Assembly (NCBI GenBank): GCA_022071955.1
Contig: JAJVIM010000004.1
Location: forward strand, 248,001 to 312,000
DNA length: 64,000 nucleotides
Reading direction: 5' to 3'
Source: Anaerolineae bacterium
Lineage (GTDB): Bacteria > Chloroflexota > Anaerolineae > 4572-78 > J111
The translations under genes were made by a program, and so were the position numbers. Of this stretch, positions 30,676-44,479 are shown in pieces. How positions within the stretch are numbered: position 1 is the first letter of the stretch; each line of letters starts with the position of its first letter. A model generated the notes under the pieces. The model was not told the origin of the DNA, made no database searches, and saw nothing but the letters and a program-made list of their open reading frames with translations.

Positions 30676-31440
30676 ATGGTCTTGCGCGTGCTTACCTACA
30701 ACATTTACCTGGGCGGGGCCGGCCGGCTGGAACAGATTTCAGCCGTGCTGGCCGCCGCCCGGGCCGACATCATCGGCCTGACCGAAGCCGATGACCCCGC
30801 CGTGGTGGCCGCCCTGGCCGAGCGGCTGGATATGGCCTACGTCTGGGCCGCCGGCAGCGGCCAGCGCCACATTGCCACACTCTCGCGCTGGCCCATCAGC
30901 GAGTGGCAAATTTTCAACCGCCCGCCGCTCACCCAGGCCGCCCTCGAAACAAAAATCGATTTGCCCTCAGCCCCCCTGACTATTTATAATATACACCTGT
31001 TACCCTATTTGCTGTTGCCATTTGAAATTCGGCGCTGGCAGGCCGCGGGTGCATTGCTGCGGCTGATTGGCCGGCGCCGGCCCGGCCCGCACCTGCTGCT
31101 GGGCGATTTTAACGCCATCGCCCCCGGTGACCGGGTGTTGCAGCGTCGCAACCCGCCCAAAATGCGCCGGGTGATGGCCCTGCAACTGGGATTGATTTTT
31201 CGGCTGGCCCTGCCGCGCCTGCTCAACGCCGGCTACACGGACTGCTTCCGCACCCTCAACCCCCAACTCGACGGTTTTACCTGGTATCCCGGCAACCCCA
31301 CCACCCGCTACGATTACATTTTGGCCGATGCTGACATGACTCGCCGGCTGACCGCCTGCCGCGTTATCGACGACCTGCCGCTGCTGGCCCAGGCCTCCGA
31401 TCACCTGCCGCTGCTGGCCGAGTTCAGTTTTGAATTTTAA
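30676..31440 (+). CDS. Endonuclease/exonuclease/phosphatase-family protein
   Basis: The 254-residue protein has the EEP fold motifs in order: LRVLTYNIYLGG, a Glu in IIGLTEAD, LLLGDFNAIAPGD and ASDHLPLLAEF. These supply the divalent-metal site and catalytic His. EEP enzymes hydrolyse phosphodiesters in nucleic acids, lipids or inositol phosphates; which one applies here is unclear. No signal peptide is visible. Its last codons run into a period-7 array, so the C-terminal FSFEF may be partly array-derived. It starts 49 bp after the WG-repeat gene on the same strand. Confidence 0.85.
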   Translation: MVLRVLTYNIYLGGAGRLEQISAVLAAARADIIGLTEADDPAVVAALAERLDMAYVWAAGSGQRHIATLSRWPISEWQIFNRPPLTQAALETKIDLPSAPLTIYNIHLLPYLLLPFEIRRWQAAGALLRLIGRRRPGPHLLLGDFNAIAPGDRVLQRRNPPKMRRVMALQLGLIFRLALPRLLNAGYTDCFRTLNPQLDGFTWYPGNPTTRYDYILADADMTRRLTACRVIDDLPLLAQASDHLPLLAEFSFEF

Positions 31441-31970: not shown

Positions 31971-33023
31971 GTGCGTAACTCCTATGGTATTCAAAACTCA
32001 AAATTAATAACTGAGAACTCAAAACTCAAAACTGAGAACTTTCCCGACTTTTGGTCTCGCCGGGCCAACGCCCAAACCGAACGCTTTGATTTTGCGCCGC
32101 TGGGGATTCCGGCCACAATAACCGCCAACCGGCCCGAAGTGCTGGTCGCCGCCCGCCTTTCGGCCGGCCGGTTCTGCCAGTCGTCGGCGCGGGAGACGCC
32201 GCCCATCCGGCTGAGCCTTGTTGTTGGCAGCGAGCCGGCCGGCCGGCTGCCGCCCGACCTGCCCGAGCAGCTCAACTACACCGGCGTGGCCGACTGGATC
32301 ACCGTTTCGGCCGGGGCGTGGGGCCACGGTTTTGCCAGCCTGCCCAGCCGTGAAGCCGTCATCATTTTATCGCCGGAACTGGCCGCCGACAGCCGGTTGG
32401 TCAGCCGCTACTTCATCGACCACTACCTGCTCAATTTCATCGTCACCGAGTGGGCCATGCTGCACGCCAGCGCCGTGCTCTCGCCAAACAGGGAGCGGCT
32501 CATCGTGTTGATTGCGCCGCACAACACGGGCAAAAGCACCACCGCGCTGCATCTGTTGCGGGCCGGGTTTCACTTTCTGGCCGATGGGATGCTCCTGTTT
32601 CGCCCGCAGGCCGATGGGGTTGAGGTGGCCGGCTACCCCGTGGGCGAAGTGAAGCTGCGCGACGACGTGCTGGCCCACTTTGCCGATTATGCCGGCCAGC
32701 CGGTGCGGGTCCGCGAGCAGCGCAAAACGGTGGTCGATCTGCGCCAGCTTCACCCGGGGCGCGTACTGGACGCGACCTTTGCGCCGGAGCGCATCTCACT
32801 TTGTTTTGTCGAGCGCCGCGAGTTGGCGGTCACTTTGGTTGAGCCGCTCACCGCCGCCGGTGTGCCGCCGCTGCTGGCTGGCAATTCGCTGTACTGGGAC
32901 GAACCGGCCCGGCTGGCCCACAACACCGCCGCCCTCGAACAACTTATTCGCGGAGCGAGTTTGTATCGCCTCCGGCTGGGAACAGAACTAGAAAGTATTG
33001 TCAACGCCGTTGCCGCTCTGTAA
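31971..33023 (+). CDS. HprK-like serine kinase-related protein, copy 1
   Basis: The frame gives 350 residues, but the first 25 or so are read from a period-7 array (NSKLITENSKLK) and the true start is uncertain; GTG at 31971 is the only start in that stretch. The core shows a P-loop in LIAPHNTGKSTTALHLLRAG and downstream FLADGMLLFR, as in the HPr kinase C-terminal domain. Stand-alone members of this group accompany lasso-peptide clusters, where they phosphorylate the peptide (PadeK of paeninodin). A second member lies at 40323-41291. No bona fide HprK N-terminal domain is present. Confidence 0.75.
   Translation: MRNSYGIQNSKLITENSKLKTENFPDFWSRRANAQTERFDFAPLGIPATITANRPEVLVAARLSAGRFCQSSARETPPIRLSLVVGSEPAGRLPPDLPEQLNYTGVADWITVSAGAWGHGFASLPSREAVIILSPELAADSRLVSRYFIDHYLLNFIVTEWAMLHASAVLSPNRERLIVLIAPHNTGKSTTALHLLRAGFHFLADGMLLFRPQADGVEVAGYPVGEVKLRDDVLAHFADYAGQPVRVREQRKTVVDLRQLHPGRVLDATFAPERISLCFVERRELAVTLVEPLTAAGVPPLLAGNSLYWDEPARLAHNTAALEQLIRGASLYRLRLGTELESIVNAVAAL
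31985..32038. repeat. Degenerate period-7 array, right of four-helix gene
   Basis: Units are TCAAAAC and variants, the reverse complement of the array at 31431-31478. It lies within the 5' end of the kinase reading frame. Confidence 0.7.
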
Positions 33024-33033
33024 AAAAAAACGG

Positions 33034-33070
33034 GGTGGGGTTTGCGCGGCAAAGCCGCGCAAACCCCACC
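33034..33070. repeat. Perfect palindrome, GCGGC-core family
   Basis: Two 17-nt arms flank AAA. The inner arm is GCGCGGC rather than GGGGCGGC, but architecture and loop match the copies at 961, 21481 and 36705. It follows the kinase stop codon by 11 bp. Confidence 0.8.
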
Positions 33071-33080
33071 AAAAATGTTA

Positions 33081-33105
33081 CCCCCTCTCCCTCAGGGAGA
33101 GGGGG
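33081..33105. repeat. Perfect C/G-tract palindrome
   Basis: The arm CCCCCTCTCCC and its complement flank TCA. It lies 10 bp beyond the preceding palindrome and 21 bp before the next start codon. Confidence 0.8.
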
Positions 33106-33126
33106 TAGGGGGTGAGGGGAAGTCCA

Positions 33127-33702
33127 TTGATCATCATCGAGCACCGTATCAACACCATTGACCAACTGCGCCGCGTGCCGCCGGAACGCGGCATCGAGGT
33201 GGATATCCGCGATTACGACGGCGAATTGCGGTTGGTCCACGACCCATTTTTGGGCGGCGAACGGCTGGCCGATTTGTTGGCCGAATACCGCCACGCCTTC
33301 ATTATTTTCAACACCAAGTGCGATGGGCTGGTGGAGCCGGTGCAGGCGTTGGCCCGCCGCTACGGCATCGACGCCTACTTTTTTCTGGATTTGGCCAGCC
33401 CCACGCTCATCAATTTGGCCCGCCGCGGCGAGCGCCGCATCGCCGTGCGCTACTCCGAGTTTGAGCCGCTCGAAGCGGCGCTGGCGCTGGCCGGGCTGGT
33501 GGAGTGGGTCTGGGTCGATTGCTTCACCCACCTGCCGCTGACCGTCGCCAGTCACCGCCGGCTGGCCGGGCATTTCAAAGTTTGTCTCGTTTCGCCGGAG
33601 ATGCAGGGCCATCCCCGCGCCGAAATTGCCGCCTATCGCCGCCAGTTGGCCGGCCTGCCGCTCGATGCCGTTTGCACTGATTTGCCGGAGGAATGGCGCT
33701 GA
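33127..33702 (+). CDS. GDPD-like phosphodiesterase-fold protein
   Basis: About 191 residues show a short version of the glycerophosphodiester phosphodiesterase pattern: EHR near the start, GIEVDIRDYDG, and LVHDPFLGG, which supply the metal-binding Glu, Asp and His residues. Typical GDPD enzymes exceed 230 residues. The TTG at 33127 is preferred because GAGGGG lies ahead of it; a GTG at 33112 is possible. The 3' end overlaps the methyltransferase gene. In this cluster it may act on a phosphodiester-linked sugar or lipid, which is speculative. Confidence 0.65.
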   Translation: MIIIEHRINTIDQLRRVPPERGIEVDIRDYDGELRLVHDPFLGGERLADLLAEYRHAFIIFNTKCDGLVEPVQALARRYGIDAYFFLDLASPTLINLARRGERRIAVRYSEFEPLEAALALAGLVEWVWVDCFTHLPLTVASHRRLAGHFKVCLVSPEMQGHPRAEIAAYRRQLAGLPLDAVCTDLPEEWR

Positions 33703-34418
33703 TGTTTGAGCTGGCCAAACGCGCCCACTGGCTGCAAACGCTGGTTGTTCGCTTCATTGCCGCCCTGCCGCCGGCCATCGAGCACAACGTGGGTAAAACG
33801 CAGGCCATCAAAAAAGCGCTGTATCTGGCCTGTCTGGAAAATGTGCCCGGCGATTATCTGGAATTTGGCGTGTTCGAGGGCACCTCGCTGCTGGCCGCGT
33901 TTGAGTGCGACCGCCGCTTTCGCGGCCCGGAAACGCCGCGCCGCAAATTCTGGGGGTTCGATTCGTTTGAGGGTTTCAAATATTTTGATGGCCGCGACCG
34001 CCATCCCTTTTTTAAGGAAGGCGAGTTCCGCAGCAGCCTGCCGCAAACGCAGCGCCGGCTGGCCCGCGCCATTCGCGGCCGGGCCGAGTTTGAACTGGTG
34101 CCCGGCTATTTTGAGCAGACCCTCGCCGGCAAATGCGCGCCGGATTTGGGCATCGGGCGGGTCAGCGTGGCGCTGATCGATTGCGATTTGGGCACGCCGG
34201 CCCGGCTGGCCCTCGATTTTATCCGCCCGGCGCTGCCCAACGGCGCGGTCATCATTTTGGATGATTATTTTGCCTATCGTGGCAGCCGCGAACTTGGGGT
34301 GGCCGGCGCGTTTGCTCAATTTCAGGCCGATCACTCCGGGCTCGAATTTCGGCGGCTGTTTGATTACGGCCACGGCGGGCAGGGCTTTGTGCTGGCCGCC
34401 GGCGGCGAGGAGGCGTAA
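33693..34418 (+). CDS. TylF/macrocin O-methyltransferase-like protein
   Basis: The 241-residue protein contains the SAM-binding VPGDYLEFGVFEGTSLLAAF near residues 50-69, then FWGFDSFEGF, ALIDCDLGTPARLALDF and GAVIILDDYF. This order is typical of TylF-family sugar O-methyltransferases that need Mg2+. It overlaps the end of the GDPD-like gene by 10 bp, and 3 bp separate it from the next gene, so the four genes 33127-36700 form a coupled unit. The likely target is a sugar or glycan. Confidence 0.85.
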   Translation: MALMFELAKRAHWLQTLVVRFIAALPPAIEHNVGKTQAIKKALYLACLENVPGDYLEFGVFEGTSLLAAFECDRRFRGPETPRRKFWGFDSFEGFKYFDGRDRHPFFKEGEFRSSLPQTQRRLARAIRGRAEFELVPGYFEQTLAGKCAPDLGIGRVSVALIDCDLGTPARLALDFIRPALPNGAVIILDDYFAYRGSRELGVAGAFAQFQADHSGLEFRRLFDYGHGGQGFVLAAGGEEA

Positions 34419-34421
34419 CCG

Positions 34422-35993
34422 ATGCAAATCATCATTCCGATGGCCGGCGAGGGCGCGCGTTTTGTGCGGGCCGGCTACACCCGCCTCAAACCGCTGATCG
34501 AGGTGGACGGCGCGCCGCTGGTACAGCACGTGGTCCGCATGTTCCCCGGCGAAACCGATTTTCTGTTTATTTGCGCCCGGCCGCATTTGGAGCAAACCTC
34601 GCTCCGGGCCGAGCTGGAACGCATCGCGCCGGGCGCGGCTATCGTCGGCATCGAGCCGCACAAATTGGGGCCGGTTCACACGGCGCTGGCCGCCGTCGAG
34701 TACATTCGGGATGATGCGCCGGTCATTTTTAATTATTGCGATGCCGCCGCGCAGTGGGCTTACGCCGATTTCAAACGGGCGGTGGCCGACTGCGACGCCG
34801 CGCTGGCCGCGTTTCGCGGCTTTCACCCCCACAGTTTGGGCCAAACGCTGTACGCTTACATTCACGAGCAGAATGGCCGGCTGCTGGAAATCCGCGAGAA
34901 ACGCGCCTTTACCGCCAACCGCATGGCCGAATACGCTTCCACCGGGACGCATTATTTCCGCAGCGGGGCGCTGCTCAAGCATTATTTTCGGCGGGCGGTG
35001 GCGCGCAATTTGCAGGTGAACGGCGAATTTTACGCCAGTCTGCCCTTTAATTTGCTGGTGGAAGACGGGCTGGATGTGCGCGTCAGCGGTGTTGAGCAAT
35101 TTATGCACTGGGGCGTGCCCGCCGATTTGGAAGAGTACCGCAGTTGGTCAACCTATTTTGCCCGCCACGCCGACTGGCAGCCGTCCGGCGCGCCGCTGCC
35201 GGGGGCCAATCTCATCCCGATGGCCGGCGCGGGCGCGCGCTTTAGCCGCGAGGGCTACCGCCAGCCCAAACCGCTGGTGCCGGTGGCCGGCACGCCGATG
35301 ATTCGCCGCGCGCTGGCTACCTTCCCACCGGCGCAAACCTGGATTGCCGCCTGCCGCAGCGAGCATTTGCAGCAGTTTGCGCTGGAACCGGCGCTGCGCT
35401 CTAACGGCCATCGGGTGCAGGTGCTGCCCGTGGCCAACCCCACCGAGGGCCAGGCCGCCACCTGCCTGCTGGCCCGCCCCCAACTCGATCCCGCCCAGCC
35501 GCTGCTCATCGCCCCCTGCGACGCGGCGCTGGTGTACGATCAGGCCCGTTACGCCGCGCTCACCGCCGACCCCGGCGTCGATGCCGTGGTTTGGACGTTT
35601 CGCAATCACCCGCATGCCAACCGCCACCCGCAGCAGTACGGCTGGGTGCAGGCCGCGCCCAACGGCACTATCGAGCGCGTCACCTGCAAAGTGCCGCTCA
35701 GCGATACCCCCCAGCGCGACCCCGGCCTTATCGGCGCGTTCTGGTTTCGGCAGGCCGGTTTCTTTTTTGAAGCGGCCGAGGCGCTGCTGGCTCAAAACCG
35801 GCGGGTCAACGGTGAATTTTACGTCGATTCCACTATCGAGGTGCTGCTGGAGCAGGGCCGGCGGGCCAAACATTTTGACGTTGAGCATTACATCTGCTTT
35901 GGCACGCCGGACGACGTGCGCACGTTTGAGTTTTGGGCGCGCTATTTTCACCACGCGCCGCACCATCCCTACCAAAACGGGCGCCACCCGTGA
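34422..35993 (+). CDS. Duplicated sugar-phosphate nucleotidyltransferase-like protein
   Basis: The 523-residue protein contains two nucleotidyltransferase domains in tandem. The first (about 1-255) starts MQIIIPMAGEGARF with KPLIEVDG; the second (about 262-510) starts ANLIPMAGAGARF with KPLVPVAG. Both also share NGEFY and a closing WGVPADLEEY/FGTPDDVRTF motif. Single-domain relatives activate hexose 1-phosphates for capsule or glycan synthesis. Whether both halves are active is unknown. The stop overlaps the next gene in GTGA. Confidence 0.85.
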   Translation: MQIIIPMAGEGARFVRAGYTRLKPLIEVDGAPLVQHVVRMFPGETDFLFICARPHLEQTSLRAELERIAPGAAIVGIEPHKLGPVHTALAAVEYIRDDAPVIFNYCDAAAQWAYADFKRAVADCDAALAAFRGFHPHSLGQTLYAYIHEQNGRLLEIREKRAFTANRMAEYASTGTHYFRSGALLKHYFRRAVARNLQVNGEFYASLPFNLLVEDGLDVRVSGVEQFMHWGVPADLEEYRSWSTYFARHADWQPSGAPLPGANLIPMAGAGARFSREGYRQPKPLVPVAGTPMIRRALATFPPAQTWIAACRSEHLQQFALEPALRSNGHRVQVLPVANPTEGQAATCLLARPQLDPAQPLLIAPCDAALVYDQARYAALTADPGVDAVVWTFRNHPHANRHPQQYGWVQAAPNGTIERVTCKVPLSDTPQRDPGLIGAFWFRQAGFFFEAAEALLAQNRRVNGEFYVDSTIEVLLEQGRRAKHFDVEHYICFGTPDDVRTFEFWARYFHHAPHHPYQNGRHP

Positions 35994-36700
35994 GCGATCT
36001 GCAACTGTCGGTGGTGCTGCCCTGCTATAACGAGGCCGACAACCTGCCGCTGCTGCTCGAGGGCTACCGGCAGGTGTGGCCGGATTGGCCGGCGGAACTG
36101 GTGCTGGTGAACAACGGCTCCACCGATAACTCGGCGGCGGTGCTGGCCCGCGAATTGGCCCGGCCCGATTACGCTTTTGCCCGCGTGGTCACGGTGGAGC
36201 GCAACCGGGGTTACGGCCACGGTATTTTCACCGGGCTGCAAGCCGCCCGCGGCCGGTTTTTGGCCTTTTCCCACGCCGATATGCAGTGCGCGCCCGCCGA
36301 CGTGTTTCGCGCCTGTGAATTGTTAGTTGGCCAACCAAACCCGGAACGGGTGCTGGTCAAAGGCCGGCGCGCGCCGCGCGGGTTGGGGGCGGCGGTCATC
36401 ACCAACGGCATGGCCGTCATCGCCAGCGGAGTGCTGAGCACCCGCCTCACCGACATCAACGCCCAGCCCAAAGTTTTCCATCGCAGCCTGCTGCCCGAGT
36501 TGACCTGCCCGCCGTCGGGTTTTCAGTTTGACCTGTACCTGCTCTACCGGGCCAAACAAAGCGGCCGGTCGATTCAAACCATTCCGGTGGTTTTTGGCGA
36601 ACGGGCGCACGGCCAGTCGAAATGGGCCTTCAGCCTGTTTTCTCGCTGGCGCACCATTTGGGCTACCATTCGCTATATTTTTCAGTTGCGGTTGGGTTAA
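35990..36700 (+). CDS. GT2 glycosyltransferase, DPM1-like
   Basis: The 236-residue protein has the GT-A motifs LQLSVVLPCYNEADNLPLLL, VLVNNGSTDNS and a DxD-like FSHADMQCAP. The C-terminal FQFDLYLLYRAKQSG and ERAHGQSKW are as in polyprenyl-phosphate mannosyl/glucosyl transferases. The GTG at 35990 overlaps the previous stop (GTGA) and begins the homology. It likely charges a polyprenyl phosphate that serves the GT-C enzyme encoded next. Confidence 0.88.
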   Translation: MSDLQLSVVLPCYNEADNLPLLLEGYRQVWPDWPAELVLVNNGSTDNSAAVLARELARPDYAFARVVTVERNRGYGHGIFTGLQAARGRFLAFSHADMQCAPADVFRACELLVGQPNPERVLVKGRRAPRGLGAAVITNGMAVIASGVLSTRLTDINAQPKVFHRSLLPELTCPPSGFQFDLYLLYRAKQSGRSIQTIPVVFGERAHGQSKWAFSLFSRWRTIWATIRYIFQLRLG

Positions 36701-36704
36701 TAAT

Positions 36705-36747
36705 GGGGTCAGTTTTGGGGCGGCTCTGCCGCCCCAAAACTGACCCC
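36705..36747. repeat. Perfect palindrome, GGCGGC-core family
   Basis: Two 20-nt arms flank TCT. It is the longest copy of the family and follows the GT2 stop codon by 4 bp. Confidence 0.85.
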
Positions 36748-36771
36748 AAAGTCAAAGATGAGATTTCAGAA

Positions 36772-38391
36772 ATGCACAGCAGCTTGCGCCGAACCTCAAC
36801 AACAGTAAGCGATTCTAACAACAAGCCCGGCCAAGCGGCGGTTGTGCTTGGCCGCTTCACGCTGTCTACCGGCCAGCAACTCGCCCTGATTGTGGCGCTG
36901 GCCTTTTTACTGCGGCTGCTACCGGCGACCGTCCGGTTTGTCATTGGCAGCGACGACGCGCTTTTTCTCACGCTCGGCCAAAATCTGGCCGCCGGGCGCG
37001 GCTACACCGGCGACGGCCTGACCACCCAGATTGACTTTCCGCCCGGCTACCCTCTTTTTGCCGCCGCGATTTTTGCCCTCGGAGGCGGGCTGGAGTGGCC
37101 AACCTGGATTAACATGCTGGTGGTTGGCTCGTTGCTGCCGGTGGCGATTTACTGGCTGGCCCGCCAGCTCACCGATGCCCGCACCGGGCTGCTGGCCGGG
37201 CTGCTGGCGGCGCTGCACCCGGCGCTGGTGCTGGGCCAGGGCAACTTTGAGTCGGTGGCCGAACCGCTTTACAGCCTGCTGCTGTACACCGGCTGGGGGC
37301 TGGTGTGGTGGGGCGTCGCCCGGCGGCGAGTCTGGCCGCTGGGGCTGGCCGGGCTGCTGATCGGGCTGGCCCATTGGGTGCGCTGGGAAGGCATCATTTT
37401 GGGGCTAATTGGCGCGGTGATGTTCGCCGGATTGCTGCGCCGCGAGCGCCGGCTGCTACCGGCGCTGGGGTTGTATCTGGCCGGGCTGCTGCTGTGCGCC
37501 ATTCCCTTTGGCCTGTTTTTGTACCGGCACACCGGCTCGGTGCTCAGCCCCAAAACCATGCTCACCCAACTCCACGCTGCCGCCATCGACGCCACCGCCA
37601 GCGATCCGTGGGCTTTTGAACGCTCCTTTTACGAGCAGTACGAGCGCTGGCTGGCCCATCCCGCCGAGCCGCCGCCGGCGCTGCAACAATCGCGTTGGGC
37701 CGCGGTTCGCCGGTACGTCGGCAATGTTTGGGTTGAAATCCGGCTCTGGTTCACCGCGCTCAGTTTTTTAACGGCGTTGTGGATTGGCCCGTTTTTGATC
37801 GGTCTGTGGCGATTGCCGTGGCGGCGAATGTTGTTTTTGCTGCCGCTGTTTATCCCGCTCGGCTTCATTCCGGCTTCGGTTGTCGATCCGCGCTATTTTT
37901 TGATCCCGCTGCCTGTCATCCTGATTTTTGTGGCGGTGGGGCTGGTTTGGTTGACGGTTAGACTGCCATCGCGATATGTTTTTGGCCGTAATCTATTGTT
38001 AGGTGGCATTTTAACTGGTGGACTGCTGGCGGCCTTTGTTGCGGCCAGTCTGGCCGGGTCGTGGCTTTATCCGCGACCGACCGGCTATCGAACCGCCGGG
38101 CTGGCGCTGCGCGGCGACATCCCACCCGGCGCGCATTTTTTGGCCCGTAAACGGCAGGTGGCCTACTACGCCGGCGGCGTGTGGGACTGGCTGCCGCTGG
38201 CTAATCTCGACGCGGTGCTGGCCCACGCCCGCGCCCGGCACATCGATTATCTGGTGGTCGATAGCTACACCACACCGGAACTGCGGCCGCAGTTGGCGTT
38301 TCTGCTCAATCCCGCCGCCGCGCCGGCGGATTTGCAGCCGGTCTACGTTTCGCCGGAGGTGGTGGTTTACCGGGTTACGAGTGACGAATGA
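36772..38391 (+). CDS. GT-C (GT39/ArnT-like) membrane glycosyltransferase
   Basis: The 539-residue protein has about ten hydrophobic segments and a soluble C-terminal domain. It starts with a cytoplasmic stretch, then LALIVALAFLLRLLPATVRF, a catalytic-type GSDDALFLTLGQNLAAG loop and FPPGYPLFAA, as in ArnT/PMT enzymes that use lipid-linked sugars. The ATG at 36772 is chosen because upstream codons are encoded by the palindrome. The last residues (RVTSDE) and the stop codon lie in a period-7 array. It probably uses the product of the preceding GT2. Confidence 0.85.
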   Translation: MHSSLRRTSTTVSDSNNKPGQAAVVLGRFTLSTGQQLALIVALAFLLRLLPATVRFVIGSDDALFLTLGQNLAAGRGYTGDGLTTQIDFPPGYPLFAAAIFALGGGLEWPTWINMLVVGSLLPVAIYWLARQLTDARTGLLAGLLAALHPALVLGQGNFESVAEPLYSLLLYTGWGLVWWGVARRRVWPLGLAGLLIGLAHWVRWEGIILGLIGAVMFAGLLRRERRLLPALGLYLAGLLLCAIPFGLFLYRHTGSVLSPKTMLTQLHAAAIDATASDPWAFERSFYEQYERWLAHPAEPPPALQQSRWAAVRRYVGNVWVEIRLWFTALSFLTALWIGPFLIGLWRLPWRRMLFLLPLFIPLGFIPASVVDPRYFLIPLPVILIFVAVGLVWLTVRLPSRYVFGRNLLLGGILTGGLLAAFVAASLAGSWLYPRPTGYRTAGLALRGDIPPGAHFLARKRQVAYYAGGVWDWLPLANLDAVLAHARARHIDYLVVDSYTTPELRPQLAFLLNPAAAPADLQPVYVSPEVVVYRVTSDE

Positions 38392-38484
38392 CGAATTATG
38401 AATGACGAATTATGAATGATGAACGACGAATGACGGTTTACGCAACACGCAACACGAATTACGCATTACGTATTACGAATTAAA
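38376..38484. repeat. Degenerate period-7 array
   Basis: Units drift from GACGAAT and TATGAAT to ACGCAAC and ACGAATT while keeping the 7-bp register. It supplies the stop codon of the GT-C gene and ends 10 bp before the next start codon. Confidence 0.8.
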
Positions 38485-38494
38485 ATGGGGCCTC

Positions 38495-39700
38495 ATGTCA
38501 TCACTCCTGCAAACCGCTCAATTTATGGCCGAGACGCTCCGGCTCGATGCCGCCGCGCCGCCCCCGCCGCCGTCCGGCCTCGATTGGCCGCTGCTGGCTC
38601 ACCACGCCGATGGCCACAGCCTGACCCCGCTGCTGTTTGACACCTGGCAGCCGAATGGCCGGCTCGATGCCGTACCGCCGGAAGTCCGTGCCCGGCTGGC
38701 CCGGGCTCACGCCGACAACACCCGTCGCAACCAGAATATTCGGGCCGAACTGCTGGACATCCACCGGATTTTGAGCGCGGCCGGCGTGCCGCATTTGGTA
38801 CTCAAAGGCTGGCCGCTGGCGGAGCAGCTTTACGCCAGTCCGGCCCAGCGGGTGCTGTACGACCACGATTTTTTGGTGCCGCCCCAGCAGGCCGAAGTCG
38901 GCCACCGGGCGCTGCTCGCCGCCGGGTTTGTCCCGCTGCCGGCCAAAGATGAGTGGGTAACCAAGCATCTGCCGCCGCTGTGGCGCAACAACGGCTATCA
39001 GTGGGACGGCTACCTGTTTGACCCCGACTATCCGCGGCCGGTTGAACTGCACGTTGAGCTGTGGGAAACAGGCTGGCGCGGGCTGGACGTGCGCCCGCTG
39101 GTCCGGCCGTGGGCTAACGCCCGCGCCGCGTTGGTGGCCGGCGCGCCGATGCAACTGCTCTCGCGGGAGAACACGCTGGTCCATTTGACCATGCATTTTG
39201 CCGGCCACCTGATTGAGCGCGACGCCCGGCTCAACCAACTGCTCGATCTGGCCCGTTTTGTCTGGCGCGAATGGGCCGCGCTTGATTGGGCGCAGGTGCT
39301 GGCCCAGGCTGGCGAAGCCGGGGTGGCCCGTTTTGTCTTCGCTTCGCTGGCGCTGGCCCACCGGATTTTTGCCGCGCCGCAGCCGCCCCCCCGAATCTGG
39401 CAGCAGTTGGCGGCGCAAACGCCAGCGGCCTTTAAAGAGTGGCTGGCCCGGCAAGGCCCGGCCGATGTGCTGACCGGCGACTATCGGCGGGCCGGCCCCG
39501 GCCAGGATTACCGGCTCACGTTTCTGGCGGCCAATTCGCTGCGGGAGCGGGCCGGAATTGCCCGTTTTGCACTGCTGCCGCCGCGCACGCAGTTAGCCCA
39601 AATGTACGGGTTGCGCCGGCCGGCGCTGGCGCCCCTCTATTACCCCCGCTTTGTGCTCAACCGGCTGAATCGCTACCGCCGGGGCTTTCGGCGCGGTTGA
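38495..39700 (+). CDS. NTP_transf_5-like nucleotidyltransferase-fold protein
   Basis: The 401-residue protein matches the uncharacterised nucleotidyltransferase family often found in lasso-peptide and glycan clusters: GVPHLVLKGWPLAEQLY followed by RVLYDHDFLVPPQQ and an alpha-helical rest with LSRENTLVHLTMHFAGH. The Asp pair in DHDFLV is the metal-site candidate. Its counterpart PadeN accompanies the kinase PadeK in the paeninodin locus. It lies between two HprK-like genes here. The reaction is not established for most members. Confidence 0.8.
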   Translation: MSSLLQTAQFMAETLRLDAAAPPPPPSGLDWPLLAHHADGHSLTPLLFDTWQPNGRLDAVPPEVRARLARAHADNTRRNQNIRAELLDIHRILSAAGVPHLVLKGWPLAEQLYASPAQRVLYDHDFLVPPQQAEVGHRALLAAGFVPLPAKDEWVTKHLPPLWRNNGYQWDGYLFDPDYPRPVELHVELWETGWRGLDVRPLVRPWANARAALVAGAPMQLLSRENTLVHLTMHFAGHLIERDARLNQLLDLARFVWREWAALDWAQVLAQAGEAGVARFVFASLALAHRIFAAPQPPPRIWQQLAAQTPAAFKEWLARQGPADVLTGDYRRAGPGQDYRLTFLAANSLRERAGIARFALLPPRTQLAQMYGLRRPALAPLYYPRFVLNRLNRYRRGFRRG

Positions 39701-39733
39701 TTTCGCGGCGCAGCCCGCATATAATGGAGGTTA

Positions 39734-39840
39734 CGAATTACGAATTATGAATGATGAATTACGAATGGCGAATGGCGGTTTACGCAACCCGCAACCCGAA
39801 TTACGTTTTACGCAACAGACGATGATGACCCATTACGCAA
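39734..39840. repeat. Degenerate period-7 array
   Basis: Units such as GAATTAC, GAATGGC and ACGCAAC keep the same register as the array at 38376-38484. It fills the spacer before the AP2-like gene. Confidence 0.75.
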
Positions 39841-39881
39841 ATTGTCTGATTGTCATTCCTTAAATTACCCGGAGTCTGCCA

Positions 39882-40331
39882 ATGGCAAAACAGGATATGA
39901 AAGGCATTAGCCGCATCGACTCGCACAATACGCACGGCTGGTTTGTGCGCAAATATCACCAGGGGCGGACAATCTCTAAATTTTTCAGCGACACCCGCTA
40001 CCAGAGCAAAGCGCGGGCGCTGGCTGCGGCCAGGGCGTACCGGGCCAAACTCGACGAAAAATTCCCCGCGCCGGCCAGCAACGCCTTTCGGACTGCGCCA
40101 CAAAAAAACAGCTCCACCGGCGTGGCCGGCGTATCTGAAACGTTTATGCGTTCGCGCAACGGGCGCAAAATCCCCTGTTTCACCGTCACATGGCGGCCGG
40201 AAAAAGGGGTGTCGCGCACCAAAAAATTCTCAATCAACGCCTACGGCCGGGAAGAGGCGTTTCGGCGGGCGGTTGAATTTCGGCGGGAAATGGAAGCGGA
40301 AATGCTGGCCAACCGCAGCCAGTCAGGTTGA
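39882..40331 (+). CDS. AP2/ERF-like DNA-binding protein, two repeats
   Basis: The 149-residue basic protein seems to contain two AP2-like units. The first spans about 8-60 (GISRIDSHNTHGWFVRKY, then KARALAAARAYRAKL) and the second about 82-140 (GVAGVSETF, FTVTWRPEKG, EEAFRRAVEFRREME). Bacterial AP2 domains occur in homing endonucleases and some regulators. No HNH nuclease is seen, so it may bind DNA only. CGGAG precedes the ATG. It overlaps the convergent kinase gene by 9 bp. Confidence 0.7.
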   Translation: MAKQDMKGISRIDSHNTHGWFVRKYHQGRTISKFFSDTRYQSKARALAAARAYRAKLDEKFPAPASNAFRTAPQKNSSTGVAGVSETFMRSRNGRKIPCFTVTWRPEKGVSRTKKFSINAYGREEAFRRAVEFRREMEAEMLANRSQSG

Positions 40332-41291
40332 CCGGGCCAGCCCGGCAGCGATGAGCGCCGGCAGTTCGGCCACGTTGGGAGCCAGCCGCAACCGGTAGCA
40401 GGCTGCCTGAGCCGCCAGCCGGCTGAGCAGATGCAGATGCCGGGCTATCGCGGTTTTGTCCCAGCCTTCGATGGCCTGCGGCAGAAGTTGCAGCACCGAC
40501 TCGGTGGGGCCAATAGGCGCCAGCTCGCTTTTGGCCAGCCCCGGCACAATCTCCGGGAAGAAAACGCCGCCGGCCGGCGCGGTATCGGCCCACACCTCCG
40601 GGCCGAAGGCGTCCGCGGCGTCAAAAACCCGTTTCTCGCGGCCGGCGCTGTGGGGGGGGATAAAGCCGGCCAGTCGCTCGAACCGGGCCAGCGAATCGTC
40701 AAAGGCGCTCAGCCGGCCGGGGTAGGCCAGCACCTCCACCGAGTCATCGCGCAGCCGCAACAGCGGCGAATCGTTGCTGAGCAGTTTCCAGCCGGCCGCC
40801 AGCAAAGCCAGGCCGGTGGTAGTTTTGCCCGCGCCCATCGCGCCGGTGATCAGCGCAGCCTGGCCGGCGGGCGACACGGCGGCAAAGGCGTGCAGCGGAA
40901 ACCAGCCTCGCCGCCGGTACAGCGGCGCCAGCGAAATCATCATCACATCTTCAAACGCGCCGTAAACCGACAGGCAGTTGGCCGTGACCCGGCCCTCCAC
41001 CCGGTTTTGGTCCAGATCGACGGTGAGCAGGCCGTATTTGGGCATGCGGATGGCAATTTGCACCGTATTGCCGTAGTAGCTCACCAGCTCGCCGGGCGCA
41101 AGTTCCGGCATATCGGCCGGCGGCAGCGGCGCAACATCGGCCGGGTGCAGTTGCCAGTCAATGTGAATGCCGGGGGCGGCGGCAGGCAGCAGGTGGCCGT
41201 ACACAGCCCGAAAACGCTCGCGGAGGGCGGCATCTTCGGCCCGGAAGGTGAGCGGCAGGCCGTGCAGCAAAACGGTGATGGGCGGCGTCAT
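40323..41291 (-). CDS. HprK-like serine kinase-related protein, copy 2
   Basis: The 322-residue protein has a P-loop in ALITGAMGAGKTTTGLALLA near residue 150, then LLSNDSPLLRLRDD and LAYPGRLSAFDDSLARF, like the HPr kinase C-terminal domain. It is the only minus-strand gene between 28.4 and 52 kb, divergent from the DUF4326-PqqD-B2 unit. Its relatives modify lasso peptides or act in unknown carbohydrate pathways. It shares general architecture with the copy at 31971-33023 but is not a close duplicate. Confidence 0.78.
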   Translation of the reverse strand: MTPPITVLLHGLPLTFRAEDAALRERFRAVYGHLLPAAAPGIHIDWQLHPADVAPLPPADMPELAPGELVSYYGNTVQIAIRMPKYGLLTVDLDQNRVEGRVTANCLSVYGAFEDVMMISLAPLYRRRGWFPLHAFAAVSPAGQAALITGAMGAGKTTTGLALLAAGWKLLSNDSPLLRLRDDSVEVLAYPGRLSAFDDSLARFERLAGFIPPHSAGREKRVFDAADAFGPEVWADTAPAGGVFFPEIVPGLAKSELAPIGPTESVLQLLPQAIEGWDKTAIARHLHLLSRLAAQAACYRLRLAPNVAELPALIAAGLARST

Positions 41292-41364
41292 AAGTTGTTC
41301 CTTTGTGCAAACTTTGAGGAGTCAGTATAATTGCCGCCAAATTTGCGTCAAATTCGGGGGAAAA

Positions 41365-41715
41365 ATGTCCGCGACTTTTGAAGAATTTCAGGCGATGTTG
41401 CAGACCGATCCGGCGGCCATTGTGGTGGCCAACATCAATGTTGACCGCGACCTCATTTCCAAAGCCCGCGCGGCCGGACTGTACGTGTTTATTGGCAAAA
41501 GTTCAAAATGGGGTAATCCTTATCAGGTGGCATGGGACGGGTCGCAGGCCGAAATTATTGGCAAATACCGGCAGTGGTTACAGGGCCAGCCCAAATTACT
41601 GGCCGAACTGCCCGCGCTGCGGGGCAAAGTGTTGGGCTGTTACTGCAAGCCCCGCGCCTGCCACGGCGATATTCTGGCCGAGCTGGCCGCTGGCCGCGGG
41701 GAGCGCGCGCAATGA
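41365..41715 (+). CDS. DUF4326-domain protein
   Basis: The 116-residue protein carries the DUF4326 pattern: VFIGKSSKWGNPYQV in the middle and GKVLGCYCKPRACHGDILAEL at the end, a Cys/His group that could bind metal. The family is found in phages and bacteria without assigned function. The ATG at 41365 follows GGGGGAAAA. Its stop overlaps the PqqD start (ATGA), so it is translated together with the RiPP-like genes, which is unusual for the family. Confidence 0.8.
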   Translation: MSATFEEFQAMLQTDPAAIVVANINVDRDLISKARAAGLYVFIGKSSKWGNPYQVAWDGSQAEIIGKYRQWLQGQPKLLAELPALRGKVLGCYCKPRACHGDILAELAAGRGERAQ

Positions 41716-41981
41716 AATTAACCGATGTCCTCAAACGCAACCCCGCTGCCGCCCACCAAAGCGTGGGTGAAGAAGCCATCATCATCAATTTAAATACCAG
41801 TACCTACTATTCGCTCAACAATACCGGCACCGTGTTTTGGGAACTCATCGACGGGCAGCGCACCATTGCCGACTGCGCCGCTGCCATTGCCCGGGAGTAC
41901 GAGGTTGCGGCCGCTGAAGTTGAAGCCGATTTGCTGGAGCTGGCCGAGGAGTTTCAGCAGGAGGGGCTGGTTTTTGTTTAG
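41712..41981 (+). CDS. PqqD-family protein (RiPP recognition element)
   Basis: The 89-residue protein has the winged-helix RRE signature of PqqD and lasso B1 proteins: EEAIIINLNTSTYYSLNNTG, VFWELIDGQRTI and a C-terminal acidic helix. In RiPP systems such proteins bind the leader peptide and present it to the modifying enzyme. It overlaps DUF4326 upstream and the B2-like gene downstream by 8 bp. This order (B1, B2, C) is that of lasso loci. Confidence 0.88.
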   Translation: MKLTDVLKRNPAAAHQSVGEEAIIINLNTSTYYSLNNTGTVFWELIDGQRTIADCAAAIAREYEVAAAEVEADLLELAEEFQQEGLVFV

Positions 41982-42438
41982 GCGACTGGGCCGGGGTATT
42001 GCGCACACGCTGACCATCGGGCTGGCCCTTTTTTCTGCTCCCCGGCGACGGCTGCTGGCGCAAATGATCCGGCTGGGGCGCTCGCTGCCGGGCCGGTTCA
42101 ACCAGCCACTGCCGGCGCTTATGGCCCAACTGACGCCCCCCGCCGCCGCGCCGGCCGCGCCGCCGGACGAGATTCGCCGTTTGGCCGATGCCGTGGCCGC
42201 GTGGCAGGTGCGCTCGCCGCTGGGCCTTTGCCTGCGGCGGTCGCTGCTGCGCTATTATTTTTTGCGGCAGGCCGGCCTGCCGGTGGTTATCATTTTTGGG
42301 GCGCGGCTCAAAAGCGATGCCGCCGGCATTGGCGGGCACGCCTGGCTTACCCTCCACGGCCAGCCCTACCACGAATCTCCGGCCGATTACCGGGGCTTCA
42401 CCGAGATGTACAGTTATCCCCCCGGCCAAAAATTGTAA
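41974..42438 (+). CDS. Lasso-peptide B2-type transglutaminase-like protease
   Basis: The 154-residue protein matches the Transglut_core3/lasso B2 family. A candidate triad is Cys86 in SPLGLCLRRS, His122 in GGHAWL and Glu134 in PYHES; spacing resembles McjB (Cys, His, Asp), with Glu in place of Asp. The TTG at 41974 is chosen because GGAGGGG lies 7 bases upstream and it lies within the PqqD gene end; an internal ATG would remove the N-terminal helix. In lasso systems this enzyme removes the leader peptide. Confidence 0.85.
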   Translation: MFRRLGRGIAHTLTIGLALFSAPRRRLLAQMIRLGRSLPGRFNQPLPALMAQLTPPAAAPAAPPDEIRRLADAVAAWQVRSPLGLCLRRSLLRYYFLRQAGLPVVIIFGARLKSDAAGIGGHAWLTLHGQPYHESPADYRGFTEMYSYPPGQKL

Positions 42439-42486
42439 ATCAGTTAGTGTCACGGAATGTTCGCCACCGCGCATTTGGCTGTGGTC

Positions 42487-42606
42487 GGTGGCAAGTGGCG
42501 TGTTTTTACCCGCCACCCGTTACTTGCCACCCGCAACCTTTTCAAGTGGCGAAAAACTAAAGACACTAATTAAATCGTAAATCCAAAATCTAAAATCCAA
42601 AATCAT
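42487..42606. repeat. Degenerate period-7 repeats before asparagine synthetase gene
   Basis: Two stretches (GCCACCC-like near 42487-42540 and AAATCCA-like near 42575-42606) fill the spacer. The second abuts the start codon of the next gene, which has no recognisable ribosome site, so the array may have replaced it. Confidence 0.65.
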
Positions 42607-42607
42607 T

Positions 42608-44479
42608 ATGTGCGGAATTTCCGGCATTGTCGCCCTGGGCGGCAACCCCATTGAGCCAACCGAAATTGAGGCGCAGGCCAACACCCTGATTCACCGCGGG
42701 CCAAACCAGGGCGGTGTTTTTGTTTCGCCCCGGCGCGACTGCGGGCTGGGCATTCGCCGGCTCAGCATCATCGACGTTGCCGGCGGGCGGCAGCCGCTCA
42801 CCAGCGAGGATGGATCGGTGGTGCTGGTTTACAACGGCGAAACCTACAACCACCGGTCGCTGCGCGCCCAACTGGAGGCGCTGGGCCACCGGCCGCGCAC
42901 GCACAGCGATGGCGAAGTGGTGCTGCACGGTTACGAAGCCTGGGGCGCGGCCGGGATTTTGCAGCAGATGCGCGGTATGTTCGCCTTTGCGCTGTGGGAC
43001 GAAACGCGGCGGCGGCTGGTGCTGGCCCGCGACCGCTTTGGCATTAAACCGCTTTACACCGCCCGGCACAATGGCCGCCTCTATTTTGCCTCGGAGATAA
43101 AGGCGATTTTGGCCCGGCCCGAGCTGCCGCGGCGGGTCAATCTGGCGGCGCTCCAGGCGTTGTTTACGGTGGGGTTTGTGCCCGGCCCGGCCACGTTGTT
43201 CGAAGGCATTTTTAAGCTGCCGCCGGCCCATTTTTTGGTGGCCGAAGCTGGCAGCGTGCGGCAGGAGCGCTACTGGGCGCTCACGTTTGCCGAGCAATCC
43301 GGCCTGTCTGAAGCCGTGGCCGTTGAGCAGTTTTTGGCGCTGCTCCGCGACAGCGTGCGGCTGCGGCTGATGAGCGAGGTGCCGCTCGGTACGCTGCTGT
43401 CCGGCGGGCTGGATTCCGGCGCGCTGACGGCACTGGTGCAGACGCAGTTGCCCCGCCGGCTCAAAACTGTGTCGATTGGCTTTGACCAGCCCGGCTACGA
43501 CGAATCGCCGCGGGCGCTGGAACTGGCCCGGTTTATCGGCACCGAGCACCAGCCTGTCACGTTTACCGCCCGCGATTTTGACGATTACCCCACGGTGATG
43601 CGGGCGCTGGAAGAACCGCAATGTTCGGCCACGGCCGTGCCCATTTACCGGCTGTACCAGGCTTGCCGGCAGGTCGGATTAACGGTGGTGCTCACCGGTG
43701 AGGGTGCGGATGAACTGTTGGGCGGCTACCACTGGCATCAGGGCGATGCCCTGGCCCGGCGCTTGCTGTTGCTGCCCGGCTGGCTGCGCCGATTGGCCGC
43801 GGCTTCGCTGCCGATGTCGGCGGCGGCGCGGCGGGTGCTGGCTCGCGGCGAGCGGGAGCCGGCCCGCCGTTTCCAACATTGGCTGGAAATTCCCGGCGGC
43901 GAATTCGGTTCGGCGCTCTTTACCGCCGGCGTGACCGCCGAGCTGGCCGCCGCCGGCCCCAACCCGCTGCTGGCAAGCTGGCCGGCGCGGCTGGCCGAAC
44001 TGCAAACGACGTCGCCGCTGCACCAGATGCTGGGGCTTGAAGCGCAAACGCGCATGGTCGATTTTATCAATTTTGAAGTCGATAAGCTCAGTATGGCCCA
44101 CTCCATTGAGGCGCGGGTACCTTATTTGGATCACAAACTGTGGGAATTTTGCGCCACGCTGCCACCGCAGTTCAAATTGAAAGGGCGGGTTGAAAAATAT
44201 CTGCTGCGGCAGGCCAGCCGCGGCCTGCTGCCCGAGGCCACCCGTCGCCGCAAAAAACTGGGGCTGGCCGCACCGTACGCCGCCTGGCTGGCCACCGAGC
44301 GCCTGCCCGATTGGGCCGAAGCGGCCCTGTCGCCGGGGGCGCTGCGGCAGGCCGGGTTGTTCAACCCGGAAACGGTGCTGCGGCTGCGGCGCGCTCATCG
44401 CGCCGGGCAGCCAAACCTTGGCCCGCTGCTGATGGGCGTACTCAGTACCCAGGTTTGGCACGAGTTGTTTGGACAATAA
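42608..44479 (+). CDS. Asparagine synthetase (glutamine-hydrolysing), lasso-cyclase-like context
   Basis: The 623-residue protein has an intact class II glutamine amidotransferase domain (MCGISG, with Cys2; RLSIIDVAGG; YNGETYN) and a synthetase domain with the PP-loop LLSGGLDSGALTAL, plus LTGEGADELLGGYHW. It makes asparagine from aspartate, glutamine and ATP. Lasso cyclases (C proteins) derive from this family. Because Cys2 is kept, a normal AsnB is equally possible; the adjacent PqqD and B2 genes favour a biosynthetic role. Confidence 0.9.
   Translation: MCGISGIVALGGNPIEPTEIEAQANTLIHRGPNQGGVFVSPRRDCGLGIRRLSIIDVAGGRQPLTSEDGSVVLVYNGETYNHRSLRAQLEALGHRPRTHSDGEVVLHGYEAWGAAGILQQMRGMFAFALWDETRRRLVLARDRFGIKPLYTARHNGRLYFASEIKAILARPELPRRVNLAALQALFTVGFVPGPATLFEGIFKLPPAHFLVAEAGSVRQERYWALTFAEQSGLSEAVAVEQFLALLRDSVRLRLMSEVPLGTLLSGGLDSGALTALVQTQLPRRLKTVSIGFDQPGYDESPRALELARFIGTEHQPVTFTARDFDDYPTVMRALEEPQCSATAVPIYRLYQACRQVGLTVVLTGEGADELLGGYHWHQGDALARRLLLLPGWLRRLAAASLPMSAAARRVLARGEREPARRFQHWLEIPGGEFGSALFTAGVTAELAAAGPNPLLASWPARLAELQTTSPLHQMLGLEAQTRMVDFINFEVDKLSMAHSIEARVPYLDHKLWEFCATLPPQFKLKGRVEKYLLRQASRGLLPEATRRRKKLGLAAPYAAWLATERLPDWAEAALSPGALRQAGLFNPETVLRLRRAHRAGQPNLGPLLMGVLSTQVWHELFGQ

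Follow-up and report, generated by a model that had tools for sequence, protein, structure and literature searches.

Gene content of the window and its relatives

The window analyzed here is a 64-kb stretch of DNA (G000:C6:248001-312000) from the 7.9-Mb draft genome of an Anaerolineae bacterium (G000), in which genes for a PqqD-type recognition element (B1) of ribosomally synthesized and post-translationally modified peptides (RiPPs), a transglutaminase-like leader peptidase (B2), and an AsnB-type amidotransferase follow one another (table 1). The original prediction described an enzyme set like that of lasso peptides, mixed with glycan genes and lacking a visible precursor; all the genes it named are present where it placed them, and its B1-B2-AsnB order is right. 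From sequence comparisons, we consider it likely that this trio is part of a RiPP pathway split over two loci, the second of which lies 70 kb away and is led by a 23-codon precursor. That precursor, the conserved HprK-like protein HprKb, and a recurring endonuclease/exonuclease/phosphatase-family (EEP) gene are three items that the original prediction missed.

Table 1. Features of the window (positions within the 64 kb) and of the second locus (positions on the contig)
Feature	Position	Strand	Basis or remark
EEP, endonuclease/exonuclease/phosphatase-family protein	30676..31440	+	PF03372, 2.7e-20; accessory role probable
HprK-like gene	31971-33023		weak HprK_rel_A match
TylF	33693-34418		
Double nucleotidyltransferase	34422-35993		
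GT2	35933-36700		
GT-C	36622-38391		
NTP_transf_5, second copy (the other adjoins the precursor)	38495..39700	+	PF14907, 2.3e-46
HprKb, HprK-like P-loop protein, conserved kinase-like partner	40323..41291	-	fold and homologue distribution
B1, PqqD-type RiPP recognition element (RRE)	41712..41981	+	PF05402, 8.5e-18
B2, transglutaminase-like leader peptidase (Transglut_core3)	41974..42438	+	NF033537, 46.8 bits (cut-off 33)
AsnB-type amidotransferase, intact glutaminase site	42608..44479	+	TIGR01536, 470 bits (cut-off 267)
Precursor, 23 codons	G000:C6:359710-359778		precursor profile, E=5.5e-11
Second locus	G000:C6:359710-372099		starts with the precursor, includes a B12 radical SAM gene

A profile of B1 matched the solved structures of TbiB1 (5v1u/5v1v, 3e-9) and TfuB1 (6jx3). 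In B2, Cys86 and His122 are invariant across 21 homologues, and the AlphaFold model has a pLDDT of 94; a comparison of this model with the PDB gave weak transglutaminase/cysteine-protease-like matches alone (Z under 5), with no lasso B2 listed, and a scan of genome contigs with B2 returned matches restricted to family members. Judged by their sequences, B1 and B2 are genuine relatives of lasso enzymes. Several of the genomes are drafts with contamination up to 8%. Within our comparison sample of 298 genomes of the class, window-type B2 is encoded in 26 genomes and strong HprKb homologues in 20, and 19 of these 20 are B2-positive where 1.7 would be expected (uncorrected for relatedness). The co-occurrence holds even when the genes lie on different contigs and covers families f1, f17, f22, f37, and f44. 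In families f17 and f22 (L086-L099, L101), window-type B2 lies by itself, at a distance from both B1 and HprKb, yet all three co-occur in the same genomes. The HprK-like/NTP_transf_5 pair that the original prediction pointed out is present, but the kinase-like gene conserved with the trio is HprKb, whose model fits the HprK/PEPCK fold (pLDDT 90), and not the one at 31971. The window NTP_transf_5 shares 61% identity with an NTP_transf_5 gene adjoining HprKb in genome G004.

The B1-B2-AsnB trio recurs in 6 of the 12 genomes of its own family at 56-70% identity and in differing surroundings. Families f44 and f37 have larger clusters of varying gene content in which HprKb is divergent from B1-B2-AsnB and is accompanied by EEP, NTP_transf_5, B12 radical SAM, FGE-like, and DUF5693 genes; in f44 one cluster combines the precursor with NTP_transf_5, EEP, radical SAM, FGE, HprKb, B1, B2, and AsnB. 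The window EEP has 62-65% identity to the gene directly 3' of AsnB in the f37 clusters and 45-47% to its counterparts in the f44 clusters.

The AsnB gene had been taken for a lasso-cyclase homologue. On the lasso-cyclase model NF033535, however, its product scores 237 bits against a cut-off of 525, whereas it passes the asparagine synthase model with glutaminase and ATP sites intact (Cys2, YNGE, SD, and GEGAD are kept). It scores 484 bits on TIGR03108 (cut-off 817), and its best scores are to XrtA/exopolysaccharide (EPS) amidotransferases. In an alignment, none of the nine window-type AsnB proteins has lost the Cys, GEGAD/GEGSD, or the YNGE-type motif. A cyclase on contig C16 of the same genome provides a built-in control: it scores 810 bits on NF033535, and the same alignment shows that its catalytic Cys (MSAI), YNGE motif, and GEGAD have been lost. 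Because the catalytic residues are kept, we read the window AsnB as a glutamine-using amidotransferase rather than a lasso cyclase, and its intact glutaminase site implies amidation.

Such an enzyme could be an ordinary or diaminopimelate (DAP)/sugar amidotransferase that lies beside B1-B2 by chance and acts outside any peptide pathway. Its TIGR01536 score and its affinity to the XrtA/EPS enzymes fit that explanation, as does the finding that most f17 genomes have B1, B2, and HprKb without window-type AsnB. We nevertheless regard it as unlikely. Phylogenetic analysis placed window-type AsnB in one clade (support 96/91), apart from paralogues, with the AsnB genes that directly follow B1 in f17 genomes G061 and G114. 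Class-wide, AsnB and the precursor occur together in nine genomes (12 and 11 carriers; 0.4 expected, uncorrected for phylogeny). Housekeeping could fall to other paralogues, since at least three more full-length AsnB-type genes lie elsewhere in the source genome (on C7, C13, and C34); with these and a precursor present, the gene is not the sole housekeeping AsnB without RiPP neighbors, the case that the original prediction had named as refuting it.

Three further features of the window were recorded. The end of a DUF4326 gene and the start of B1 share four bases (ATGA; window:41365-41981), which suggests translational coupling in this genome; the overlap is not seen in relatives. Upstream of the EEP gene lies a gene for a protein with 16 WG beta repeats and a signal-like N-terminus (window:28455-30626), and a small 23S rRNA-intervening-sequence/bAvd-like protein is encoded between the EEP and HprK-like genes (window:31476-31835); a homologue of the latter is also found beside AsnB in G007 (L014).

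Identification of a short candidate precursor

That no precursor is visible in the window was confirmed: no credible candidate turned up when its six frames were scanned for YxxP-type leaders, down to very short open reading frames (ORFs), and nothing exceeded the reversed-sequence control. An all-against-all comparison of the small ORFs around B1, B2, HprKb, and AsnB identified, in five f22 genomes, a 41-43 aa ORF (KKTYQTPTLTKHQRLQKVTLGTVSNGPNWLLPGN) that lies between B1 and the kinase and contains the RRE-binding motif YxxPxL; the other conserved small ORFs were shadow ORFs of known genes. Searched class-wide, a profile of the f22 precursor had no match in the source genome and weak matches elsewhere, including a 23-aa ORF between EEP and NTP_transf_5 in an f44 cluster (MKTYTKPALKKHETLKQVTFSSH), and a similar ORF is present in f17. 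A profile of three peptides from f44 and f17, from which the source genome was excluded, was then searched in the 298 genomes; 11 of them matched at E<=1e-8, and the next matches were at 0.03. The match in the source genome, MKKYSKPAIKKHAELKSVTFSSH, lies about 70 kb downstream of the window trio on the same contig, and the 40-60 codon precursor that had been expected is replaced by one of 23 codons outside the window. As an out-of-sample check, G001, a genome outside the 298, also carries the precursor (MKKYSKPEMKKHAELKSVTFSSH). In 160 further genomes of the phylum, a thin sampling beyond the class, the source genome alone was recovered, and we found no report of the peptide in the open-access literature.

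Relatives of the precursor are 21-23 residues long, share the consensus YxKPx[LIM]xKHxxLK[QS]VTFSxH, and end in VTFSSH, VTFSAH, or VTFSMH, the C-terminal TFSxH being invariant. The 20-residue leader contains Y4, P7, [LIM]9, and T19, of which Y, P, and T are invariant. Lasso leaders are reported to carry YxxPxL at -17 to -12 (PMC10368454), and the precursor has YxxPx[LIM] at these positions with Thr at -2. A purine-rich, GGAG/AGGA-type ribosome-binding site is located 5-12 bases upstream of each start. Across 21 codons, variable columns number 9, 9, and 20 by codon position, and synonymous to nonsynonymous codon differences are 49:21 in f1, 40:11 in f17, and 10:1 in f44. Within its own family, the precursor is present in five of the six genomes that have the trio and in none of the six that lack it, the exception (G003) being a fragmented 87% draft. 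We consider the precursor assignment well supported. A chance ORF, or a regulatory leader-peptide ORF upstream of NTP_transf_5, would also be very short and, like attenuator ORFs, lie just upstream of a biosynthetic gene; but the protein sequence is conserved across four families with synonymous drift that includes AGC/TCA switches, the gene downstream is not constant (NTP_transf_5 in f1 and radical SAM in f17), and the RRE-binding motif is matched at lasso spacing, which together make this explanation highly improbable.

These results also bear on the idea of a true lasso cluster whose ordinary precursor escaped detection. B1 and B2 come from lasso-associated families, and contig C16 of this genome carries a bona fide lasso-type cluster (L009:9530-16636), where a second PqqD-B2 pair, the cyclase, a 73-aa precursor (lasso_cyano, 5e-7), an HprK-like kinase, an ABC transporter, and NTP_transf_5 are encoded among exopolysaccharide genes in what is, from its gene content, a paeninodin-like arrangement. 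The window AsnB, however, fails the lasso-cyclase model and retains glutaminase residues missing from the C16 cyclase, the window contains no precursor motif, and the core of the co-occurring precursor has 3-4 residues and no Asp/Glu at 7-9. The idea is largely refuted, and we give it almost no weight. By the Thr(-2) rule, the C16 core would be GCNKMYGSADGFTFMGDSIVCASGS, with its first Asp at position 10 rather than 7-9, an unusual ring.

A proposed two-locus pathway

In the source genome the precursor is followed by NTP_transf_5, two GT2, membrane protein, DUF5693, DinB-like, polysaccharide flippase, FGE-like, and B12 radical SAM genes. Orthologs of the radical SAM gene (about 70% identity) are confined to trio genomes of the family (G000, G001, G002, G004, and G007), and the remaining family genomes have more distant paralogues alone (27-34% identity). 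In f17 the precursor lies upstream of radical SAM genes and, in most of the genomes inspected, also of NTP_transf_5 genes. The DinB-like gene (L284:17775-18293) is close to the FGE-like gene (L284 19546 to L293 364). EgtB-type enzymes, which act on histidine, combine these two domain types in one protein; the precursor core has an invariant His, and the link may be coincidence.

The genes themselves, the conservation of the precursor, the spacing of its leader, the co-occurrences, the state of the key residues, and the complete f44 clusters were observed; every catalytic step, the cleavage site, and the order and identity of the product are inferred, as follows. B1 would hold the leader through its Y-x-x-P-x-[LIM] motif. 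The HprK-like protein may modify the invariant Ser, by analogy through phosphorylation, and the NTP_transf_5 and GT2 enzymes may put sugar on it; paeninodin-type kinases phosphorylate a core Ser, to which the NTP transferase PsmN attaches one or two hexoses (PMC9266682). B2 would cleave after Phe20, with Thr at -2 as in lasso leaders, between MKKYSKPAIKKHAELKSVTF and SSH, and free Ser-X-His. The SpI peptidase of linear polyphosphorylated peptides (LPPs), a RiPP group of Bacillota, cleaves one residue earlier, directly after Thr (PMC13381572), which here would yield FSxH; we prefer Ser-X-His because B2 is a lasso-type peptidase. With glutamine as donor, the AsnB-type enzyme would amidate a carboxylate of the product or of its glycan, and the radical SAM, FGE-like, and flippase proteins may provide further modification and export. 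Because the kinase/NTP transferase pair adjoins glycosyltransferases and a flippase, a peptide-primed glycan is suggested. Both options left by the original prediction, a precursor elsewhere or machinery that modifies something else such as a glycan-linked substrate, would then hold in part: the precursor is distant, and the product appears to be nonlasso and tied to glycan genes.

The precursor does not adjoin B1/B2 in f1 or f17 and the source genome holds other PqqD genes, so the pairing rests on the f44 clusters and on co-occurrence. Other PqqD proteins might serve the 23-residue peptide while the window trio acts on some protein or glycan-linked substrate: the genome has three PqqD matches, 70 kb separate the precursor and the trio, and f37 trios have no detected precursor. 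The f44 clusters, though, unite window-type B1, B2, HprKb, and AsnB with the precursor, and its presence or absence tracks the trio within the family, so that we judge this division of labor quite unlikely. Besides the separation of the two loci, several other points weigh against the two-locus pathway. No precursor was detected in the f37 clusters or in G003, in genus g76 B1/B2/HprKb occur with neither AsnB nor precursor, and G058 (81% complete) has the precursor, with no B1, B2, or strong HprKb found there. HprKb keeps H134 and K156, but every window-type (SxH-type) HprKb aligned has Asn in place of the first Asp of the HKDD motif; the kinase activity of HprKb is therefore doubtful, and phosphorylation is offered as a hypothesis. 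The co-occurrence counts, moreover, carry no phylogenetic correction. Given the f37 clusters and genus g76, related pathways probably have other precursors.

The best reading of these data is a new RiPP variant near the Bacillota LPP peptides, with a Ser-X-His core predicted to be phosphorylated, glycosylated, and amidated. A bolder proposal, which we make tentatively and think somewhat more apt to fail than to hold, is a new Anaerolineae RiPP class. A precursor of 21-23 residues would here supply the tripeptide Ser-X-His as primer for a small molecule, either cofactor-like or surface-exposed, that is amidated, glycosylated, and modified by radical SAM chemistry, and the lasso-cyclase relative that takes part would have kept, or regained, the ability to transfer ammonia. 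The distant short precursor would account, at least in this class, for lasso-type enzymes that seem to lack a substrate. Standard mining, which expects 40-60 codons near the enzymes, misses this precursor because it is too short and too distant, and other "precursor-less" B1-B2 clusters may hide similar distant short precursors. At 21-23 residues, with a core of three, these precursors would to our knowledge rank among the shortest. An AsnB-fold enzyme with predicted working ammonia chemistry and a lasso cyclase in one genome also allow a direct comparison of amidation with lactam formation.

Two other loci were observed. A sibling system in f22 (L147, L148, L149, L150, L151) and G041 (L178/L229) combines B1 and an HprK-like kinase with a precursor of 39-43 aa. 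The f22 precursor ends in VTLGTVSNGPNWLLPGN, the DD pair is intact in the f22 kinase, and B12 radical SAM is encoded nearby. The sibling system is probably another nonlasso RiPP, because the core has no conserved Asp/Glu and no AsnB is nearby. In G003, of the same genus, a lasso-like precursor (L038:1852-2079, MKHLYESPELTVFGSVESIT...) lies beside an AsnB-type gene.

Comparison with known RiPP systems

Phosphorylated lasso peptides of the paeninodin/pseudomycoidin type share B1, B2, an AsnB-fold enzyme, HprK-like and NTP_transf_5 proteins, and leader spacing with the system described here. They differ from it in that here there is no macrolactam acceptor, the core has 3-4 residues, and an AsnB with an intact glutaminase site takes the place of the lasso cyclase. 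Among lasso hallmarks, the B2 peptidase and the leader motif are present, whereas core Asp/Glu at 7-9 and a cyclase above cut-off are absent. The mycofactocin pathway resembles the system in its short precursor, tiny C-terminal core, RRE partner, radical SAM, peptidase, and glycosyltransferase logic, but the families differ throughout and HprK, AsnB, and B2 are absent, so that the resemblance is one of logic alone. The SynChlorMet cassette combines PqqD, HprK-like, and radical SAM proteins, and we know of no B2 or AsnB in it; HprKb matches ScmC (1.7e-4) and B1 matches ScmD (1.9e-4) weakly, all far below cut-offs.

The LPP peptides (PMC13381572, 2026) share a discrete RRE, an HprK-like kinase, an NTP transferase, the lack of a lasso cyclase, and a polysaccharide-locus setting, and the first three of these are found together in one cluster in f44. 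Their leader grammar, YxxP...H...T followed by Ser, is shared as well, and the LPP kinase acts on the core Ser (PMC13381572). The LPP consensus YxxPxVLxHQxIxFETxxS is matched here in skeleton, with differing residues and length, and HprKb lacks the full set of His-Lys-Asp-Asp kinase residues. LPP precursors have 35-200 aa and are cut by a SipW-like SpI peptidase beside an MsbA pump (PMC13381572), whereas here they have 21-23 aa and a B2-type peptidase is found; no SpI peptidase was recognized among the genes examined in full clusters, where no dedicated search for one was made, and B2 stands in its place. Also unlike LPP loci, those described here have additional AsnB, B12 radical SAM, FGE-like, and Wzx-like genes, are split, and occur in Anaerolineae, while LPPs are considered by their authors to be restricted to Bacillota (PMC13381572). 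Because the short precursor, B2 in place of SpI, the predicted amidating AsnB, the added genes, the split loci, and the host phylum all differ, we do not assign the system to the lasso or LPP peptides; as predicted from its genes, it is a RiPP variant that belongs to neither.

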